Shown piece by piece: positions 12,012-29,271 of a DNA stretch of 41,256 nt. A model generated the notes under the pieces. That model saw only the letters and a list, made by a program, of their open reading frames with translations, ran no database searches and was not told the origin of the DNA. Source of the DNA: a virus; IMG/VR virus record IMGVR_UViG_3300032144_000029, positions 1 through 41,256 of that record; one strand, given 5' to 3'. Made by a program: the position numbers and the translations under genes. Each line of letters begins with the position of its first letter. Positions within the stretch are counted from its first letter, which is position 1.

Positions 12012-13001
12012 CTAACCCGCAGCGCCGCCACGCACGATGCGCAGCCCGGTCGGAGCGACCGGCACGGCCGGCGCCGGCAGAGGTGGCGGCGGCGGCCCGC
12101 CCGCCGTCGGATGCGCGCGCAGGTAGACCTCGCGCAGGCGTTGCGGCGTGACGTGGGTGTAGCGCTCGGTCGTCGCGAGCGTCGCGTGCCCGAGGAGCTC
12201 CTGCACGACGCGCAGGTCGGCGCCGCCCTCGAGCAGGTGCGTCGCGAAGGAGTGCCGCAGCGTGTGAGGGCTCGCGCGCCCGCGCATCCCCGCCTGCAGG
12301 CAGGCGCGCCGGAGCATCTCCCTGGCCGACGAGCTCGACAGCGGCTCGCCGCGCGCCCCGATGAAGAGGAACGCCGACTGCCGGTTGATGAAGGCGAGGC
12401 GCTCCGCGCGCAGCTGCCGCCAGGCGCGGATCGCTTCGGCGGCGCGCTCGCTCAGGAAGACGACGCGCTCCTTGCCGCCCTTGCCGCGGATCAGCAGCGA
12501 GCCGTCGTTCACCCGGAAGGCGTCCTCGGTGACGCTCAGCGCCTCGGAGATCCGCATCCCGCTGGCGTAGAGCAACTCCATCGTCGCGCGGTCGCGCGCC
12601 CCGATGAAGCCGTCGGCGGGGATGCAGTTCAGCAGGTGCTCGACCTCGACGCGCGTCAGCACGCGCGGGAGCCGGCGCGGCCGGCGCGGCAGGTCGATGC
12701 AGTCGGCGACGTTTCGAGGGAGCCGCGCCGAACGAACGTAGAACGTCAGCAGCGAACGAATGACCGACAGTCGCCGGTGCAGTGAGGCTGGCGAATCGTG
12801 ACCACCCACGCCATTTGTGCGGAAGACGCTGTAGTGGCGCAGGTGCTCGACCGTGATTCCCTCGAGCTGGTCGACGCCCTGGCTCTTGGTCCACGCGAGG
12901 AAGCACTTGAGATCGTAGGCGTAGGCGACGTGCGTGCGCGGGGACTGTGACTTGGCCTTGACTGAATCGAGGAAGTGGGCAACGTCCTCTGCGAGTGGCA
13001 T
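12012..13001 (-). CDS. XerC/XerD-like tyrosine recombinase (phage integrase)
   Basis: A 329-aa protein on the minus strand, the only clear minus-strand gene; ATG at 13001 follows an AGGGG ribosome site. An N-terminal SAM-like core-binding domain (about 4-95) precedes the catalytic domain. All catalytic residues are present: Arg150 (ASGMRISEAL), Lys174 (RGKGGKER), His246 and Arg249 (PHTLRHSFATH), His272 (LGHATLATTERY) and Tyr281. Size and motif spelling match Xer recombinases rather than lambda Int, with no arm-binding domain. The last ~30 residues form a Pro-rich tail. The protein should integrate and excise the genome, perhaps at a Xer-like site such as the palindrome at 13191-13210 upstream of its start. 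Confidence 0.92.
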   Translation of the reverse strand: MPLAEDVAHFLDSVKAKSQSPRTHVAYAYDLKCFLAWTKSQGVDQLEGITVEHLRHYSVFRTNGVGGHDSPASLHRRLSVIRSLLTFYVRSARLPRNVADCIDLPRRPRRLPRVLTRVEVEHLLNCIPADGFIGARDRATMELLYASGMRISEALSVTEDAFRVNDGSLLIRGKGGKERVVFLSERAAEAIRAWRQLRAERLAFINRQSAFLFIGARGEPLSSSSAREMLRRACLQAGMRGRASPHTLRHSFATHLLEGGADLRVVQELLGHATLATTERYTHVTPQRLREVYLRAHPTAGGPPPPPLPAPAVPVAPTGLRIVRGGAAG

Positions 13002-13074
13002 TCGATCACCCCTGGCGACCTGCGACCGCGACGCAGGCGAAACCCCCTACCTAATTCTCGCTACAGAAAACTGA

Positions 13075-13102
13075 TTGACAAGCCGATAGAGAGAAATACC
13101 AT
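13075..13102 (+). promoter_or_regulatory. Candidate promoter for the excisionase-led operon
   Basis: TTGACA (13075-13080), 16 bases, then TACCAT (13097-13102; 4/6 match to the -10 consensus) in a locally AT-rich stretch. It points toward the HTH gene at 13306 and the long accessory operon. The complementary strand offers TTGTCA at the same place for an integrase promoter, but with a poor -10. Confidence 0.45.
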
Positions 13103-13186
13103 TCAGCGCGTCGGGTAGGGAAAGCCCGCGAAGCGCGCCTGCGGTGACCGTGCCACGCGACCCTGGAAGTGATCAGTCCCCAGGGA

Positions 13187-14031: not shown

Positions 14032-14980
14032 TGCCGAACTGCAGCGCACCACCGATCGGAGTGGACACGATCGGCGACCAGGTCGGGCTCTACCAGGGCA
14101 GCGGCCACGACAGCGGCTACTACGGCGGCGGCCGCAACGTCCACACGCCCGAGCACCACAAAGCGATCGCCGAGGCGGCCGACGCCGTCATGCGGCTCGA
14201 CGCGCAGGGGCAGCCGGATCCCTGCGGCGAGATCGGCCTCGTCGGGCTGGGCTTCTCCTACTCGGTCGCCGTCTTCGACGCGATCAAGCTGGGGCTCGGC
14301 TTCCTCTCGCCGGCGCCGCGCGACGGGCTCGTGCCGGTCAACTGCGCCTATCCGGGCAAGGACGCCAGCAACTGGGCCGACCCGAACGACTGGGTCTGGA
14401 CGACGCACGTGCCCGCGATGCTCACCGTCGCCGGCGTGAGCCCGGCGCAGGTGCAGGTCGCCTACCTGCTGACGGGGCTGCGCGACTCGGGCGGCGTCGG
14501 CTACCCGCAGCACGTCGTGAATCTCACGGCGCTGCTGAAGGCGATCGCCGCCAACGCGCGCGCCGTCTTCCCGAACCTGAAGCTGCTCTACCTCGACTCG
14601 GTGCACGCGCACCACTACACGAACGCCGGCATCACGCCCGACGTCGAGCCGACGTTTCTCGAGCAGGGCTTCGCGGTGCGCCAGGTGATCCTCGACCAAC
14701 TCGCCGGCGACCAGCAGCTGGCTCCGAGCGTCGCGCCGGTCCTCGACTGGGGCGGGAGGCTCTGGTGCGACGGCGCGCGCGCCGACAGCCGCGGCCACGA
14801 CTGGCTCTGCCCGACCGACGTGCGGCCCGACGGCCATCACACGTCGGTGATCGGCTCGGACAAGTTGGCCGACCTCGTGCTCGACGTCTGGCGCGAGGCC
14901 GTCCACGCGCGCTGGCTCTACGGCGCGCCGGGCTCCGAGACGCCGGGTGGCGGCGTGCCGCCGACGCAGGAGGCCGGGTG

Positions 14981-14981
<1 letters not shown>
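14031..14981 (+). CDS. SGNH-hydrolase-like protein
   Basis: A 316-aa protein from ATG 14031, with no signal peptide. It resembles a bacterial family of SGNH (GDSL)-fold proteins. A block-I-like segment GLGFSYSVAVFDA (72-84) replaces the usual G-D-S. Other family landmarks follow: VAGVSPAQVQVAYLL, FPNLKLLYLDSVHAHHYTNAG, LEQGFAVRQVILDQLAGD, and DWGGRLWCDG. A block V DGHHTSVIGSDKLADLVLDVW (267-287) supplies the Asp/His pair. Ser76 or Ser78 could be the nucleophile. Such enzymes act as esterases or deacetylases on glycans and lipids. In a phage it might modify a surface polymer or aid lysis, but without an export signal this is open. Confidence 0.6.
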
Positions 14982-15774
<793 letters not shown>

Positions 15775-15778
<4 letters not shown>

Positions 15779-21874: not shown

Positions 21875-22635
21875 CGTCGGAGCAGATCATCGACCTCCTC
21901 GTCGCACGGCGCTACGAGCCGCCAGAGTGGTTCACGCTGCGCGAAGTGCCGCCGAACAAAGGCGCGGCGCGCCATCTCGACCTCGTCGCCTGGAACACCT
22001 TCTCGTCGCGCGGGCTGCGCGTCGACGGCATCGAAGTGAAGGTGTCGCGCTCGGACTGGCTGCGAGAGCTCAAGAACGCGGAGAAGGCGGAGCGGACCTT
22101 CGCGATGGTCGAGCGCTTCTTCGTCGCGGCTCCTGAGAGCGTGGTGAAGCTCGATGAGCTGCCTCCGGAGTGGGGCTTGATCGAGGTCCGCGGCGAGCGG
22201 CTGTTCAACGTGCGAGTGCCGGCGGTCCGTGAGCGGGGTCCGTACTCGAAGGGCGAGGTCGTCGGGATCATGCGGCGGGTTCAGGCGACGTGGTACGAGA
22301 CGGAGAAGGTCCGCGCGCTTCAGCATCAGCTTGAGACGGCCAACGATCGTGCGCGCGCGAGCTTCGATGAGGAGCGCGTTCGGCTGCAGCAGAAGCGCCA
22401 GGCGGCGGATGCCGAGCTCCTGAGGCTTCGCGAGCTGATCGGGGTCCACGAATGGTCAAAGGACCAGATCGAGAAATGTGGCGAGTTCCGGGCGCTGCTG
22501 GCGCGATTCGGTGACGGGAAGGACGCGCTAGCTCAGGCGCGCCGTGGGGCCGAGCGCGGCATTGCCGAGCTGCAGAGTCTCATCCATGCCGTCGAGCGGT
22601 TGCAGGGCCGGCTTGCCGACCAGGTGCCAGCATGA
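21871..22635 (+). CDS. MmcB-like nuclease-fold protein with coiled coil
   Basis: A 254-aa protein from GTG 21871. Residues 1-135 carry the phage MmcB-like pattern GAARHLDLVAWNTFSSRGLRVDGIEVKVSRSDWLRELKNAEKAERTFAMVERFFVAAPE, with a PD-(D/E)xK-type core (Asp37, Glu55-x-Lys57). This suggests a metal-dependent nuclease or DNA-binding fold. The rest (about 150-250) is a long coiled coil (KVRALQHQLETANDRARASFDEERVRLQQKRQ). It lies immediately upstream of the C5-methyltransferase with a 4-bp overlap, so a modification-associated role is worth considering; a restriction-like pairing is not shown. Confidence 0.75.
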   Translation: MTSEQIIDLLVARRYEPPEWFTLREVPPNKGAARHLDLVAWNTFSSRGLRVDGIEVKVSRSDWLRELKNAEKAERTFAMVERFFVAAPESVVKLDELPPEWGLIEVRGERLFNVRVPAVRERGPYSKGEVVGIMRRVQATWYETEKVRALQHQLETANDRARASFDEERVRLQQKRQAADAELLRLRELIGVHEWSKDQIEKCGEFRALLARFGDGKDALAQARRGAERGIAELQSLIHAVERLQGRLADQVPA

Positions 22636-24215
22636 GCGGCCTCCTGGTCGATCTTTTCGCTGGCGCGGGCGGCGCGTCCGTCGGCATCGAAGCCGCGCTC
22701 GGCCGCTCGGTCGACGTCGCCGTCAACCACGACGCGACCGCCGTCGCGGTCCACACGGCCAACCACCCCGACACGCTTCACCTGAAGACGGACGTCTGGG
22801 AGGTCGACCCGCTCGACGCGACCGGCGGGCGCCCGGTCGAGCTGCTCTGGGCCTCGCCCGACTGCCGGCACTTCTCGCGCGCGAAGGGCGGGGTGCCGCG
22901 CTCGCCGCGCGTCCGGTCGCTCGCGTGGGTCGTGGTGAAGTGGGCGCAGGCGGTGCGGCCGCGCGTGATCGCGCTTGAGAACGTGCAAGAGTTCACGACC
23001 TGGGGACCGCTCGGCAAGGACGGGACGCCGATCAAGGCGCGCGCGGGCGAGACGTTCAGCGGGTGGGTTAAGGCGCTGCGGAACCGGGGCTACGAGGTCG
23101 AGAGCCGGGTGCTCGACGCGAGCCACTTCGGCGCCCCGACCCGGCGGCGCCGGCTCTTCATCGTGGCGCGCCGCGACGGCCAGCCGATCGCCTGGCCGAA
23201 GCCGACGCACGGGCCCGGGCTCCTGCCGCTGCGCACCGCGGCCGAGTGCATCGACTGGTCGCTGCCGTGCCCCTCGATCTTCGACCGGAGGCGGCCGCTC
23301 GCGCCCGCGACGCTGCGGCGGGTGGCGGAGGGGATCCGGCGCTTCGTGCTCGGCGCCGCGGAGCCGTTCGTCGTCAACCTCTCGCACGGCGGGCGCGTCG
23401 AGCCGCTCGGCGATCCGCTGCGGACGATCACCGCAACGCCAGACGGCGGCGACCGGGCCATCGTCTCGCCGCTCGTCGCCCCGACGCTGGCGAAGTTCCG
23501 CTACGACTCGGCCGGCCAGCGCGTCGACGCGCCGATGCCGACGATCACGGCCGGAGGCGGTCGCGAGGATCGACCTGCAGGCGCAGGGCACGCGCTCGGG
23601 CTAGTCGCTCCGACGCTGATCCAGACCGGCCACGGCGAGCGCGACGGCCAGGCGCCGCGGGTCCCGGGCCTCGACAAGCCGCTCGGCGCCGTCGTGGCTG
23701 GCGGATCGAAGCGCGCGCTCGTCGCGGCCTACCTCGCGCACCACTACGGCGGCGAGGTCGGGCGCGAGGCGACGCGTCCGCTCGGAGTCGTGACCTCGCG
23801 CGACCATCACTCGCTCGTCGCCGCGAGCCTGACGAAGTGGTACGGAACCGCGTTCGGCCAGGCGGTCGACGAGCCGCTCCACACCGCGACCGTGAAGGCG
23901 CGCTTCGCTCTCGTCGAGACGTTCCTCGAGCGGCACGGGATGCCCGGGCCTCACGTCGTGCGCGTCGACGGCGAGAGCTACGCGATCGTCGACATCGGGC
24001 TCCGGATGCTCGAGCCGCACGAACTGCTGCGCGCGCAGTTCGGCGATCACGCCGCGCGCATGGACCTCGCCGCGGCGAAGACGAAGGCAGCGAAGATCCG
24101 GCTCGTCGGGAACAGCGTCTGCCCGGACGTGGCCGCGGCGATCGTGCGGGCCAACTTGCGCGGCGCGCCGTCGGTCTCGCGGCAGCCGCCGCTCTTCGCG
24201 GCAGGTGCGCCATGA
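22632..24215 (+). CDS. DNA cytosine-C5 methyltransferase
   Basis: A 527-aa protein from ATG 22632. Motif I DLFAGAGGAS (7-16), the catalytic loop ASPDCRHFSRAKGG with Cys78 (PDC in place of the usual PCQ), motif VI ENV (116-118) and the motif VIII-like stretch GAPTRRRRLFIVA are all present. A long C-terminal part (LQTG-rich, GGSKRALVAAYLAHHYGG and LRMLEPHELLRAQFGD to IRLVGNSVCPDVAAAIVRAN) carries the motif IX-X region. It methylates C5 of cytosine in a target that cannot be read from sequence. Phage C5 methyltransferases usually shield virus DNA from host restriction. Overlaps both neighbours by 4 bp. Confidence 0.93.
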   Translation: MSGLLVDLFAGAGGASVGIEAALGRSVDVAVNHDATAVAVHTANHPDTLHLKTDVWEVDPLDATGGRPVELLWASPDCRHFSRAKGGVPRSPRVRSLAWVVVKWAQAVRPRVIALENVQEFTTWGPLGKDGTPIKARAGETFSGWVKALRNRGYEVESRVLDASHFGAPTRRRRLFIVARRDGQPIAWPKPTHGPGLLPLRTAAECIDWSLPCPSIFDRRRPLAPATLRRVAEGIRRFVLGAAEPFVVNLSHGGRVEPLGDPLRTITATPDGGDRAIVSPLVAPTLAKFRYDSAGQRVDAPMPTITAGGGREDRPAGAGHALGLVAPTLIQTGHGERDGQAPRVPGLDKPLGAVVAGGSKRALVAAYLAHHYGGEVGREATRPLGVVTSRDHHSLVAASLTKWYGTAFGQAVDEPLHTATVKARFALVETFLERHGMPGPHVVRVDGESYAIVDIGLRMLEPHELLRAQFGDHAARMDLAAAKTKAAKIRLVGNSVCPDVAAAIVRANLRGAPSVSRQPPLFAAGAP

Positions 24216-25041: not shown

Positions 25042-26307
25042 GTGGCTGGAAAGGTGTCGTGGTTCGCGGTGCACTCGGGGCCGTGGGCGGCGGTCGCGGC
25101 GAGCTTGTCGCTCGAGGACGAGGGGCTCTTCCTGCGGCTCGCGACGCTGATCCAGCTGCACGGCGTGCGCGGCGCCGCGACGATGCCACCGCGCCGCTGG
25201 GCTCTCCTGGCCAGGTGCCAGCTCGATCGCTTCCTCGAGGCCGTCGATCGGCTGCACGAACTCGGCGCGCTGCGCGTCGAGGCGGGAGTCCGACCAGAAG
25301 ATCCGACGACGATCGCCTGCCCGATGGTGGCCGACACGGACGGCTTCGTCGAGGAGAAGCGCAGGAAGGATCGCGAGCGACGCAACGGCGATCGCCAGGA
25401 GCCAGGACACGCCGATGTCGAACCGATTCCGACGGAATCCATCGGAATCCATCAGAATCCGTCGGAATCCAAGGAACGCCACGGAATCGGCCATAGCAGT
25501 GAAGTGAAGAGCAGTGAAGAGCATGCGGCTCCGCTTCGCTCCGCCTCTGCGGAGCTCCCTCCGGTCGCTCCGCTTGCGCCGAGCTCGGCGGCTGACGCCG
25601 CCGCCTCGCCGCCGCCGGCGGAGCGTTCAGGCGAGTGGCCCGAAGTCCCGGAGGAGCTGTGCCCGTTCGAGCGCTGGCACTCGCCGGAGGCGTCGGACGT
25701 GCCGCGGCTGCGCTCCGGCCAGCGCGCCTTCCTCGAGCGCTGGCCGGAGACCCGCGCGCAGCTGCTCTCGGCGTTCCCGTCGCTCGACCTCGGCGACCAG
25801 CTGCGGCAGGCCTACGCGTGGGAGACGCTGAACCCGAAGACCAGGAAGACGCCGGCGGGCCGCGCCGACTTCCTCTTCCGGTGGTGCGCCAGGAGCCAGG
25901 ACAAGGCGGCCGCGAGCAGCGCCGCGCGCGCGCCGCCACCCAACCTGCGCAACGACGCGTCCGCGCTCGCCGCGGCGAGAACCGCCTCGCTGCGCGAGCG
26001 CGTCCCGAAGGGCGACACGCCGATCGCTGCCGGCGCGCGCGCGAGGTCGAACCTCGGCCCGTTCGGACCGCCGGTTGGCCAGCACGGCGGCTACCTGCGC
26101 ATCGAGGGCGACCGCCTCGAGCTGTTCTCGTTCGAGGGCGAGGTGGGCCATGCGAGGTGCACCTGGATCGGCTCGGCGTCGGCCGTCAAGGCGACGCACG
26201 ACCGCGAGCAGGAGCGCTTGAGGAAGGCGAAGGACGACTGGGTGAAGCAGCGCAGCCGCGAGACGCTCGCGCCCGCGAGCCCTCCGACGAGCACGGCGCC
26301 CGCGTAG
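25042..26307 (+). CDS. Replication-initiator-like protein with internal iterons
   Basis: A 421-aa protein. GTG 25042 is chosen over GTG 25036 because GGGAGG lies 5 bases before it. The N-terminal ~90 residues (WFAVHSGPWAAVAASLSLEDEGLFLRLATLIQLHG, ALLARCQLDRFLEAVDRLHELGAL) form a winged-helix domain typical of phage replication initiators/replisome organisers. A variable low-complexity linker follows (residues 110-195, encoded over the iterons). A conserved C-terminal part then runs from WPEVPEELCPFERWH to TWIGSASAVKATHD. No helicase or primase motif is visible. In lambda-like phages the origin sits inside the initiator gene, the same layout as here. Confidence 0.65.
   Translation: MAGKVSWFAVHSGPWAAVAASLSLEDEGLFLRLATLIQLHGVRGAATMPPRRWALLARCQLDRFLEAVDRLHELGALRVEAGVRPEDPTTIACPMVADTDGFVEEKRRKDRERRNGDRQEPGHADVEPIPTESIGIHQNPSESKERHGIGHSSEVKSSEEHAAPLRSASAELPPVAPLAPSSAADAAASPPPAERSGEWPEVPEELCPFERWHSPEASDVPRLRSGQRAFLERWPETRAQLLSAFPSLDLGDQLRQAYAWETLNPKTRKTPAGRADFLFRWCARSQDKAAASSAARAPPPNLRNDASALAAARTASLRERVPKGDTPIAAGARARSNLGPFGPPVGQHGGYLRIEGDRLELFSFEGEVGHARCTWIGSASAVKATHDREQERLRKAKDDWVKQRSRETLAPASPPTSTAPA
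25425..25490. repeat. Tandem 10-bp iterons, candidate replication origin
   Basis: Phased 10-bp repeats around the core ggaatcc: gacggaatcc (25431), atcggaatcc (25441), atcagaatcc (25451), gtcggaatcc (25461), with diverged copies at 25421 (reverse-like gattcc) and 25481 (acggaatcgg). Exactly 10-bp spacing puts each site on the same face of DNA, as in initiator-binding iterons. Two agcagtgaag repeats follow from 25494. Confidence 0.65.
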
Positions 26308-26349: not shown

Positions 26350-26724
26350 ATGGAGCGAGCGGGGAGAGTGGTCGTTGAGGCGGTGCGAGTTCGACTCGCG
26401 CCGACCGGGCGGCTCCTGACGGTGATCCCGGAGGCGTTCTCGGCCAGCGCCGAGCTCTGCGTCATCCGCGACCTGACGGTGTCGTCGCGCACCGTCCGCC
26501 AGCGCGCCGGGTGGGCCGTGCTTCACGTCCGCACCGGGCTCGCCGTCGCGATCGTCGTGCGCCGCGACGAGGCCTTCCTGCTCATGCGCCTGCTCGACCG
26601 GCAACCGGTCTGGGCCTACGAGGACGGCAACCCCGAGGCGGTGTCGCGCGCGCTCGAGCGCTGCTTCTCGATCCTCGCGAACTTCGACGTGCGCGCGCCG
26701 CGGCCGGCGCGGGCGGTGCCGTGA
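26350..26724 (+). CDS. Unknown protein upstream of the terminase
   Basis: A 124-aa protein from ATG 26350; a start at TTG 26374 with the GGGGAGAG site upstream is an alternative. Predicted alpha/beta (TGRLLTVIPEAFSASAELCVIRDLTVSSRTVRQRAGWAVLHVRTGLAVAIVVRRDEAFLLMRLL), with a hydrophobic but not membrane-length core. It resembles no family known to me. It overlaps the small terminase start by 4 bp, so it may belong to the late operon. Confidence 0.55.
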   Translation: MERAGRVVVEAVRVRLAPTGRLLTVIPEAFSASAELCVIRDLTVSSRTVRQRAGWAVLHVRTGLAVAIVVRRDEAFLLMRLLDRQPVWAYEDGNPEAVSRALERCFSILANFDVRAPRPARAVP

Positions 26725-27344
26725 CCGGGAAGCGCGTGCTCGTCGGGGTCCGCGCTTACGCCAGGCATCGGACGGAGCGCGGGGAGCCGACGTCTCACGT
26801 CGCCGTCGTGAAGGCGATTGCCGATGGCCGCCTGCGCGGCGCGGTGACCGGCAGCGGCCACGCGACGCGTATCGACCTGGTGAAGGCCGACGCCGCGTGG
26901 AAGGCCAACACCGACCCGGCGCAGCAGCGCGCGCGCGCTGCCGATGCCGCGCCGCGCGCGCGCCGCAAGAACGACGGGTCGAAGCTCTCGCTGATGGAGC
27001 TGCGCACCGAGAACCTCCGCTGGACGACTCGGCGCGAGAAGCTCGCCTACCTGCAGGAGAGCGGGAAGCTCGTGCCGCTCGACCAGGTGAAGAAGCAGGT
27101 CTTCGGGCAGTTCCACGCGCTCCAGACGAAGAGCTACCAGATGGTCGAGCGCGTCGCGCGGCGCCTCGCGCTTGCCGCCGACGAGCGCAAGGTGCGCGAC
27201 ATCCTCCTGCGCGAGCTGCGCGCGATCTACGAGGTCGAGGCCGACCGCGCCCTGCGCGAGGCGGAGCGCGCCGAGCTCGAAGACGAGCGTCCAGTCGCAC
27301 CGGCTCCTGCGCCGGCCACCGCCGAGGAGGACGGCGATGGATAG
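26721..27344 (+). CDS. Terminase small subunit
   Basis: A 207-aa protein from GTG 26721. The N-terminal segment RAYARHRTERGEPTSHVAVVKAIADGRLRGAVTGSGHATRIDLVKADAAW is the winged-helix DNA-recognition region found in small terminase subunits paired with GpA-type large subunits. A helical middle (LMELRTENLRWTTRREKLAYLQESGKLVPLDQVKKQVFGQFHALQTKSYQ) mediates oligomerisation in the family. It recognises the phage packaging site and delivers DNA to the large subunit. It overlaps the large subunit start by 8 bp. A cos site is expected nearby but is not identified. Confidence 0.85.
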   Translation: MTGKRVLVGVRAYARHRTERGEPTSHVAVVKAIADGRLRGAVTGSGHATRIDLVKADAAWKANTDPAQQRARAADAAPRARRKNDGSKLSLMELRTENLRWTTRREKLAYLQESGKLVPLDQVKKQVFGQFHALQTKSYQMVERVARRLALAADERKVRDILLRELRAIYEVEADRALREAERAELEDERPVAPAPAPATAEEDGDG

Positions 27345-29271
27345 GTCGACCGCGCGCAAGCTGATCGCGCAGGCGATCTCCGACGGTCTGCGCCCGCCGA
27401 AGCTCTGGAACATCGTCGAGTGGGCGGAGCGCCACATCGCGCTCGACTCGCGCTCGTCAGGCACGCTGGGCGACTGGCGCGTCTGCAACTCGCCCTACGT
27501 CGCCGAGATCCTCGAAGCGCTCTCGCCCGACTCGCCCGTCACCGACGTCGCCGTGATGAAGGGCAGCCAGCTCGGCATCACGCTGATGGCCCACATCTGG
27601 ATGGGCTTCCTGATCAGCGAGCACCCCTCGAACATCTTCAGCTGCATGCCGACGGTCGAGGACGCGAAGGACGCCAGCAAGCAGAAGTGGCGCCCGCTCG
27701 TCGACCTCTCCGAGCCGCTGCGCGAGCGCATCGCGCCGCCGCGCAGCCGCGACTCGGGCAACACCATCATGGTGCAGGAGTTCCCTGGTGGCAGCCTGAT
27801 CTGGGCCGGCGCCAACAGCCCGGCCCGCTTCCGATCGCGCTCCGGCCGCTACGTCTTGGCCGACGAGATCGACGCCTACCCGAAGACGATCGCGACCGGC
27901 GACCCGATCGCCTTGATCGAGCGCTTCACGTCGACCTACCGCAACCGCAAGCACCTCTGGATCTCGACGCCGACCGATGAGCTCACGAGCTCGATCGCGA
28001 AGAAGTTCCGGGCCGGCGACCAGAGCAGGCTCTACGTGCCGTGCCCTCGCTGCGGCGAGCAGCAGCTGCTGATCTTCCGCGACGTGAAGACGGGCCGGAA
28101 GGGGCTGCGCTGGGAGGGCGTGCTGCCCGACCTCGACGTCTGGTACGAGTGCGAGAAGTGCCACGGCCGGATCGACGAGTCCGAGAAGGACTGGATGCTC
28201 GAGCGCCACGTCTGGCGCCCGACCGTGCCTCGGCTGAGCGAGTCCTACCGCAGCTTCCACGTCTCGTCGCTCTACTCCCCTCCGGGCCAGCTCTCGTGGA
28301 GCCGCATCGCCGCGCGCTACGTGAACGAGGGCAACGGCCAGAACGCGCTCAAGCTGCGCGTCTTCATCAACGAGGTGCTCGGCGAGACGTGGGAGGACCG
28401 CGGCGAGTCGCCCGAGTGGGAGGATCTCTTCAGCCGGCGCGAGCTCTACGCGATCGGGACGGTGCCGAAGGGCGTCCACGTCCTCACCGCTGGCGCCGAC
28501 GTCCAGAAGGACCGCATCGAGGTCGAGGTCGTCGGATGGGGGCCGCGGCTCGAAAGCTGGTCGATCGACTACATCGTGATCCAGGGCGACACCTCTGCCG
28601 ACGCGACGTGGCGGAAGCTCGACGACCTGCTCGTGCGGCCGTACCGCCGCGCGGGCGGCGGCGAGCTGCGCATCCGGCTGCTCGCCGTCGACACCGGCTG
28701 GGACACGATGCGCGTCTACAACTGGGTGCGCGGCAAGCCGCCGGGCTCGGTGATCGCCGTCGATGGCCGCGCGACCCAGCCGACGCTCGTCACCGGCCAC
28801 CCGAAATACATGGACGTGCGGCGCGCCGGCGGCGTCATCCGTCGCGGCGTGCAGCTCTGGGGCGTCGGCACCAACCTCGCGAAGCGGGAGCTCTTCACCT
28901 TCCTGCGCGTGCGCCCGGTGAATCGGCCCGGCGAGCCGGTGCCAACCGGGCTCTGCCACTGGCCGCAGTACCCGCAGGACTACTTCGAGCAGCTGACCAA
29001 CGAGCGCCTCGTCACGAAGAAGAAGCACGGCTTCACCCAGTTCGTCTGGGAGAAGACTGGCCGCAATGAGGCGCTCGACTGTCGAGTGTATGCCCGGGCG
29101 GCGTCTGCTATTGTCGGGATCGACCGATGGAATGAACACGACTGGGCGCGCGCCATTGGCGGGGCGGCGCCGGCACAGTTGCGCGGCAATGCCAAGGGGA
29201 GCGCCCCAAGGACTGGCCGCTACGGCGGCCTCGGGGACATGAGCCGGTGGCATTCACGACGGCCGACCTGA
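27337..29271 (+). CDS. Terminase large subunit, GpA family
   Basis: A 644-aa protein from ATG 27337. ATPase: KGSQLGIT (75-82) is the GpA-type Walker A, RYVLADEIDAYP (171-182) the Walker B, and the coupling motif STPTDE lies near 210. A small zinc site follows (CPRC, CEKC around 235-272). The nuclease half begins with ADVQKDRIEVEVVGWG and includes VDTGWDT and a C-terminal YFEQLTNERLVTKKKHGFTQFVWEKTG. This motor cuts and pumps DNA into the prohead. GpA-family enzymes usually cut at cos sites. The C-terminus overlaps the next gene by 25 bp. Confidence 0.93.
   Translation: MDRSTARKLIAQAISDGLRPPKLWNIVEWAERHIALDSRSSGTLGDWRVCNSPYVAEILEALSPDSPVTDVAVMKGSQLGITLMAHIWMGFLISEHPSNIFSCMPTVEDAKDASKQKWRPLVDLSEPLRERIAPPRSRDSGNTIMVQEFPGGSLIWAGANSPARFRSRSGRYVLADEIDAYPKTIATGDPIALIERFTSTYRNRKHLWISTPTDELTSSIAKKFRAGDQSRLYVPCPRCGEQQLLIFRDVKTGRKGLRWEGVLPDLDVWYECEKCHGRIDESEKDWMLERHVWRPTVPRLSESYRSFHVSSLYSPPGQLSWSRIAARYVNEGNGQNALKLRVFINEVLGETWEDRGESPEWEDLFSRRELYAIGTVPKGVHVLTAGADVQKDRIEVEVVGWGPRLESWSIDYIVIQGDTSADATWRKLDDLLVRPYRRAGGGELRIRLLAVDTGWDTMRVYNWVRGKPPGSVIAVDGRATQPTLVTGHPKYMDVRRAGGVIRRGVQLWGVGTNLAKRELFTFLRVRPVNRPGEPVPTGLCHWPQYPQDYFEQLTNERLVTKKKHGFTQFVWEKTGRNEALDCRVYARAASAIVGIDRWNEHDWARAIGGAAPAQLRGNAKGSAPRTGRYGGLGDMSRWHSRRPT

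Follow-up and report, generated by a model that had tools for sequence, protein, structure and literature searches.

One-turn repeats within an initiator-like phage gene and the prediction of an intragenic replication origin

We propose, with a probability of roughly 83%, that an array of helically phased repeats in the initiator-like gene P0001 is where the initiator binds within a phage replication origin located inside the gene of that same initiator. A preliminary description of this DNA had placed iterons in the linker-coding part of the gene, in an arrangement resembling lambda O/ori. That proposal is supported by homology of the C-terminal domain, by the enrichment of one-turn repeats across its family and by a blind scan with the array core, which retrieved initiators; the iteron reading is further backed by DNA-level constraint in all three reading frames of a related N-domain family.

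Results

An initiator-like gene with a repeat array in its linker

The window, by which we mean the whole 41,256-bp stretch of DNA analysed here, is a single virus record from a contractile-tailed phage. It encodes an integrase (12012-13001, minus strand), a GpA-type terminase (27172-29271), a portal, a capsid/protease, a tail sheath and a tape measure protein. The initiator-like gene lies shortly upstream of the packaging genes, and a C5 cytosine DNA methylase gene (22632-24215) is found just upstream of it. The lowest-GC stretch of the window (0.40, approximately 13046-13105) adjoins the integrase gene and is a candidate attachment or regulatory region.

P0001 (25036-26307, plus strand; 423 residues), delimited by its open reading frame and GC3 pattern, comprises an N-domain (approximately residues 1-110), a charged linker (approximately residues 111-225) and a conserved C-domain (approximately residues 240-292). 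The region coding for the latter (25759-25905, plus strand; QLLSAFPSLDLGDQLRQAYAWETLNPKTRKTPAGRADFLFRWCARSQDK) was assigned by an HMM, by the family alignment A1 and by pairwise matches to two other loci, L029 and L119. The array occupies approximately residues 129-152, between the N-domain and the conserved C-domain. Searches of Pfam, PHROG, NCBIfam and PDB returned no family match for P0001, and no close whole-protein relative was found in viral contigs, one-per-species genomes or annotated phages. No helicase-loader gene was recognised directly downstream, where the next gene (26350-26724) lacks a convincing match and is followed by the terminase gene.

The core array (25434-25473, plus strand) consists of four 10-bp units, predicted to be initiator-binding iterons, which start at 25434 (GGAATCCATC), 25444 (GGAATCCATC), 25454 (AGAATCCGTC) and 25464 (GGAATCCAAG). 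At least four tandem units with a GGAATCC core, spaced by exactly one helical turn, had been reported earlier; four units are indeed present, with the exact core in three of them (the unit at 25454 reads AGAATCC), and the spacing holds at 10 bp through 25464, shortens to 9 bp up to 25473 and returns to 10 bp up to 25483. The diverged and inverted flanking copies noted at the same time are likewise found. Two diverged units, GGAACGCCAC at 25473 and GGAATCGGCC at 25483 (the latter corresponding to GGAATCGG(CC)), form the right boundary of the array (25473-25490, plus strand), while an inverted half-unit, CCGATTCC, which reads GGAATCGG on the minus strand, forms the left boundary (25423-25430, minus strand). 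The array is consequently bounded by an exact 8-bp inverted repeat, in which CCGATTCC at 25423-25430 pairs with GGAATCGG at 25483-25490. Written in a 10-bp register from 25423, the region reads CCGATTCCGA / CGGAATCCAT / CGGAATCCAT / CAGAATCCGT / CGGAATCCAA / GGAACGCCAC / GGAATCGGCC / ATAGCAGTGA / AGTGAAGAGC / AGTGAAGAGC, so that the register of the array carries on into the two copies of AGTGAAGAGC at 25503-25522. TRF describes the array as period 10 with 3.9 copies and a score of 64. A 10-bp period is not divisible by three; the units therefore pass through all three reading frames and encode no peptide repeat.

The tract that follows, with its two AGTGAAGAGC copies (25491-25523, plus strand), is A+T-richer and purine-biased and represents a weak candidate for the unwinding element. 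Its GC content is 0.48, still near half, against a window average of approximately 0.71, and 73% of its bases are purines; it lies where relatives have their R/Y tracts and is weaker than theirs. The array region is among the 0.3% least stable 60-bp windows. The preliminary description had suggested GC skew as a check, and no turning point was seen at 25.4 kb, although skew has little power when the phage genome is small and almost every gene lies on the same strand.

The array exceeds chance and is unlikely to reflect an RNA signal

The array has a period-10 run score of 21.5. Shuffling the gene 1000 times gave scores no higher than 14 when synonymous codons were exchanged, with protein and codon usage preserved, and 1000 plain codon shuffles gave scores no higher than 11.5; none of the shuffles of either kind equalled the array. 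The lag-10 autocorrelation of the segment 25415-25525 reaches 0.61 (z = 7), topping all 1113 sampled 111-bp segments of the window, and the lag-20 autocorrelation is likewise the highest among the sampled segments. Within the 41,256 bp, the array is the second strongest; the only stronger one is a long in-frame 9-bp array of CCGCCGCCG type at 15453-15659, which corresponds to a repetitive protein segment of the ORF at 14765-15778. These results confirm that the array is real and beyond chance.

An mRNA structure or another RNA-level signal is a very unlikely source of the pattern. The segment does fold somewhat better than its shuffled versions (z -1.84), but equal or better folding is seen in 13 of the 200 shuffles, and helix-phased direct repeats are not an RNA feature.

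The C-domain family is enriched in one-turn linker repeats

Among terminase relatives, which are phages only about 35% identical, one useful C-domain match was obtained, that of L029, which shares the C-terminal region of P0001. A tblastn search of phages with the C-domain at E up to 10 gave chance-level matches. Further loci were collected with degenerate DNA patterns of the C-domain motif, a selection blind to repeats. The resulting alignment A1 of the C-domain (NPxxRKTxxGxxxFLxxW) combines P0001 with 20 phage proteins, and P0001 has all 11 invariant residues (W, N, P, R, K, T, G, F, W, R and Q). An HMM of the domain finds 84 family ORFs, 52 of them non-redundant, and matches P0001; in BLASTP, the C-domains of P0001 and L119 align with E=2e-8 for one comparison. 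Pfam holds no model for a C-domain of this type, and two family members weakly match a PHROG named replication initiation protein. These results place the C-domain of P0001 in a phage family of initiator-like proteins.

In 50 non-redundant family genes, including P0001's, the DNA preceding the C-domain was examined at periods 5-33 against synonymous shuffles, with 0.5 genes expected per period at p<=0.01. Periods 10 and 11 reached this threshold in 12 and 14 genes, and periods 20, 21 and 22 in 7, 6 and 10, respectively. The codon-compatible periods 6 and 12 did so in 10 and 11 genes, while periods 8, 9, 13, 16, 17 and 19 gave 0, 1, 2, 0, 1 and 0. These counts reveal an excess at one and two helical turns. 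Among 200 other ORFs of the same loci, six were significant at period 10 and one at period 11 (Fisher 9e-6 and 4e-10, respectively). As a positive control, the same test applied to lambda O returned periods 20 and 23 at the annotated iterons. The sequence of the unit varies by lineage (for example, TTCGCGAG, ATTCCGCGGAG, GTCCGGACAGT and GGGAAGCAGTC), and 36-bp tracts with at least 92% purine or pyrimidine are present in 12 of the 50 linkers and in none of 279 controls. Approximately half of the family is without a significant one-turn array, and the rule is therefore a strong tendency, not a universal one. The initiator linker of one locus (L070) holds two arrays, one of 11-bp GTCCGGACA units and one in-frame with a 21-bp period.

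The array core retrieves phage initiators

Viral contigs were scanned for GAATCC-N4-GAATCC-N4-GAATCC, that is, for three cores 10 bp apart, which yielded 47 loci; some are near-duplicates, so that the counts refer to loci and not to independent events. Most matches lie approximately 80-200 residues into an ORF organised like an initiator gene and are closely followed by an R/Y-biased tract. Nine of ten dissimilar representatives match phage replication families of PHROG or Pfam, nearly all of them named "replication initiation protein". One locus, L119, combines 10-bp GAATCC units with the same C-domain as P0001. A control scan with the cores set 13 bp apart, a distance that shifts the frame in the same way, produced 7 loci, one of which is clearly an initiator of this kind.

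Linker repeats are associated with the N-domain

Selection by the N-domain only, of the MARIRTIKPEF type, gave 80 loci (71 distinct) whose C-terminal regions fall into 19 BLAST clusters. The layout recurs both in relatives and beside unrelated C-domain families. In 70 of these genes, the first 120 nt after the N-domain contain 158 TCGCGA cores, compared to 18.7 from synonymous shuffles. The cores are distributed over the three reading frames as 57/47/54, and successive cores are 10 bp apart in 74 cases and 20 bp apart in 10. Together, these figures demonstrate constraint at the DNA level and link the repeat to the N-domain. Members of the set are related by descent and hence not independent, though their frames and C-domains differ.

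These data bear on the possibility that the repeat is a neutral minisatellite, in which slippage expanded a 10-bp unit in a peptide-tolerant linker with no DNA function. Such linkers are tolerant, two of the units in P0001 are identical and adjacent, and simple 5-7 bp repeats also occur in some relatives. However, slippage gives no preference for one or two turns over 8, 9, 13, 16, 17 or 19 bp, would not keep one core in three frames beside 19 C-domain clusters, and leaves the 47 versus 7 loci at 10- and 13-bp spacing unexplained. We regard this explanation as quite unlikely.

Selection acting on a linker peptide repeat, with the DNA repeat as its by-product, has almost no probability left. 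Although the repeat sits in an open frame and the peptide SSRILANPRE recurs in one relative family, a 10-bp period rotates the frame so that successive units encode different residues, and the repeat is lost, in P0001 as in the TCGCGA genes, when codons are shuffled synonymously with the protein unchanged. Support is also found for the earlier view that the linker peptide is shaped by DNA function.

A natural swap illustrates the association between N-domain and repeat: the C-domains of L037 and L054 are 92% identical, their N-domains show no match at E<=1e-3, and TTCGCGA gives way to TGTCAC as the linker motif. In another locus, L081 (IMGVR_UViG_3300042453_003022), a segment resembling an HNH endonuclease, with paired CxxC motifs, lies in the initiator linker and cuts the TTCGCGA array in two, as though an endonuclease had inserted into an origin.

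The MARIRTIKPEF-type N-domain was modelled as a winged helix (pLDDT 81). Its nearest PDB folds in Foldseek are mostly DNA-binding winged helices, none with an E-value <0.001, and include 4pt7, titled "Structure of initiator". AlphaFold modelling of P0001 without relatives gave an unusable model (pLDDT 45), and hhalign of its N-domain against the family N-domains gave a probability of at most 11%, which lends no support to homology; DNA binding by P0001 is therefore a prediction. A resemblance of this N-domain to DUF1376 (PF07120) is an unconfirmed impression; no DUF1376 was found in terminase relatives.

Named phages encode proteins with a MARIRTIKPEF-type N-domain, several of them annotated as a replication initiation protein. 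In five of these phages (Mx8, P12026, Louie, Vibrio 1.131.O and Gsput1), the gene that follows codes for a helicase, a lambda P-like protein or a DnaC-like loader. One- or two-turn arrays are present in Vibrio 1.131.O, Gsput1, Bernal13, PSonyx and Bordetella IFTN1. In Bernal13 (L260, TCGCGA-type) and PSonyx (L264), arrays are not confined to the linker, an 11-bp array lying inside the N-domain coding region, at approximately residues 54-70. For Mx8 p19, an annotated relative, the period test detected no one- or two-turn array. The linker of this Myxococcus phage protein (L255) contains an extra segment (WVYFVRAESGGPVKIGTA...), of GIY-YIG type by eye, followed by a TGGAGA tract.

Repeats bound by the encoded DNA-binding protein would look alike if they served as an autoregulatory operator or roadblock, at which the protein limits its own transcription while replication starts elsewhere. 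The near-palindromic ends of the array, with a DNA hairpin z of -3.1, fit such a site. A mid-gene position about 400 bp past the start codon would nevertheless be unusual for an operator, and in relatives the helix-phased arrays adjoin R/Y tracts and several have a helicase or loader gene next. We therefore consider an operator instead of an origin unlikely, while noting that the two roles can coexist.

Discussion

Taken as an origin, the array suggests the following course of events. The N-terminal domain of P0001 would bind the GGAATCC-type units, which, being repeated every 10 bp, lie on one face of the helix. Several bound copies of P0001 may then assemble on the DNA into a nucleoprotein complex, whose strain on the neighbouring tract (25491-25523) would open it. 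Both steps follow the paradigm of lambda and of the iteron plasmids (PMC5043065, PMC7466680). The conserved C-domain would in turn recruit or load the host replicative helicase, a role we infer for it. The linker peptide between the domains presumably tolerates any sequence that the repeats encode, and DNA function would dictate that segment of the protein. Binding, unwinding, helicase recruitment and origin activity are all predictions of this model.

We lean somewhat towards a broader view, in which a large, mosaic class of tailed-phage initiators carries one-turn (10-11 bp) linker iterons, and recombination transfers the N-domain and its iteron together, as an interchangeable module that sets specificity, onto C-domains of different kinds that recruit the helicase. 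P0001 would belong to this class, with GGAATCC as its iteron and an N-domain of a type not described before. If so, very many phage origins and their binding sites could be read from the initiator gene alone. Origins are unmapped for most phages known from metagenomes only; should one-turn linker repeats mark the origin, both origins and recognition sequences would become predictable across many unrelated phages. The linker would also provide a case of a protein segment with a sequence set by DNA-level function, and the natural swap of an N-domain with its binding sites is a module exchange open to laboratory testing.

Intragenic phage origins have long been known, so the advance concerns generality, geometry and the swap rule rather than the principle. 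The open-access literature searched yielded lambda, SPP1 and P1 repL as precedents but no statement of a general one-turn rule, whose novelty is accordingly provisional.

In plasmids, the rep gene does not usually contain the origin, iterons are longer and DnaA boxes are often present, whereas no DnaA box within one mismatch was found near the array, at around 25 kb. The iteron plasmids (RK2, F, P1 oriR and pSC101) have helix-phased direct repeats that are bound by the initiator, with an A+T-rich element adjoining (PMC5043065). In Bacillus phage SPP1, gp38 binds the direct repeats of oriL within its own gene 38, next to an A+T-rich element (PMC6316719); family searches detected no sequence relation to gene 38, and SPP1 has a second origin, oriR, along with its own loader and helicase. 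In P1 repL, the lytic origin oriL is inside the initiator gene, and synonymous changes to its A+T-rich stretch cut replication (PMC9948254), which separates the DNA and protein roles. The element reported for repL is the A+T-rich tract, a phased iteron array not being reported as its key feature. The initiators of PHROG 1408, 2149 and 5810 share the succession of N-domain, linker and C-domain, with phased repeats and an R/Y tract in the linker; P0001 matches none of the three, its N-domain being of a separate or highly diverged type.

In lambda, ori lies in the middle of the O gene, with several O-bound iterons, an adjoining A+T-rich unwinding tract and a linker encoded by the repeats (PMC7466680, PMC5043065). 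The P0001 array shares this placement inside an initiator gene, between the N- and C-terminal domains. The lambda iterons measure 18-19 bp (18 in the annotation), form near-perfect inverted repeats to which O dimers bind, and start 20-24 bp apart, or about two turns, whereas the units described here are direct, with cores of approximately 7 bp every 10 bp, or one turn. No homology of P0001 to O was found in Pfam, PHROG or NCBIfam, and no P gene was recognised next door. The best reading is that the array and its initiator, though P0001 is no lambda O homologue, work like lambda O/ori with units spaced by one turn instead of two.
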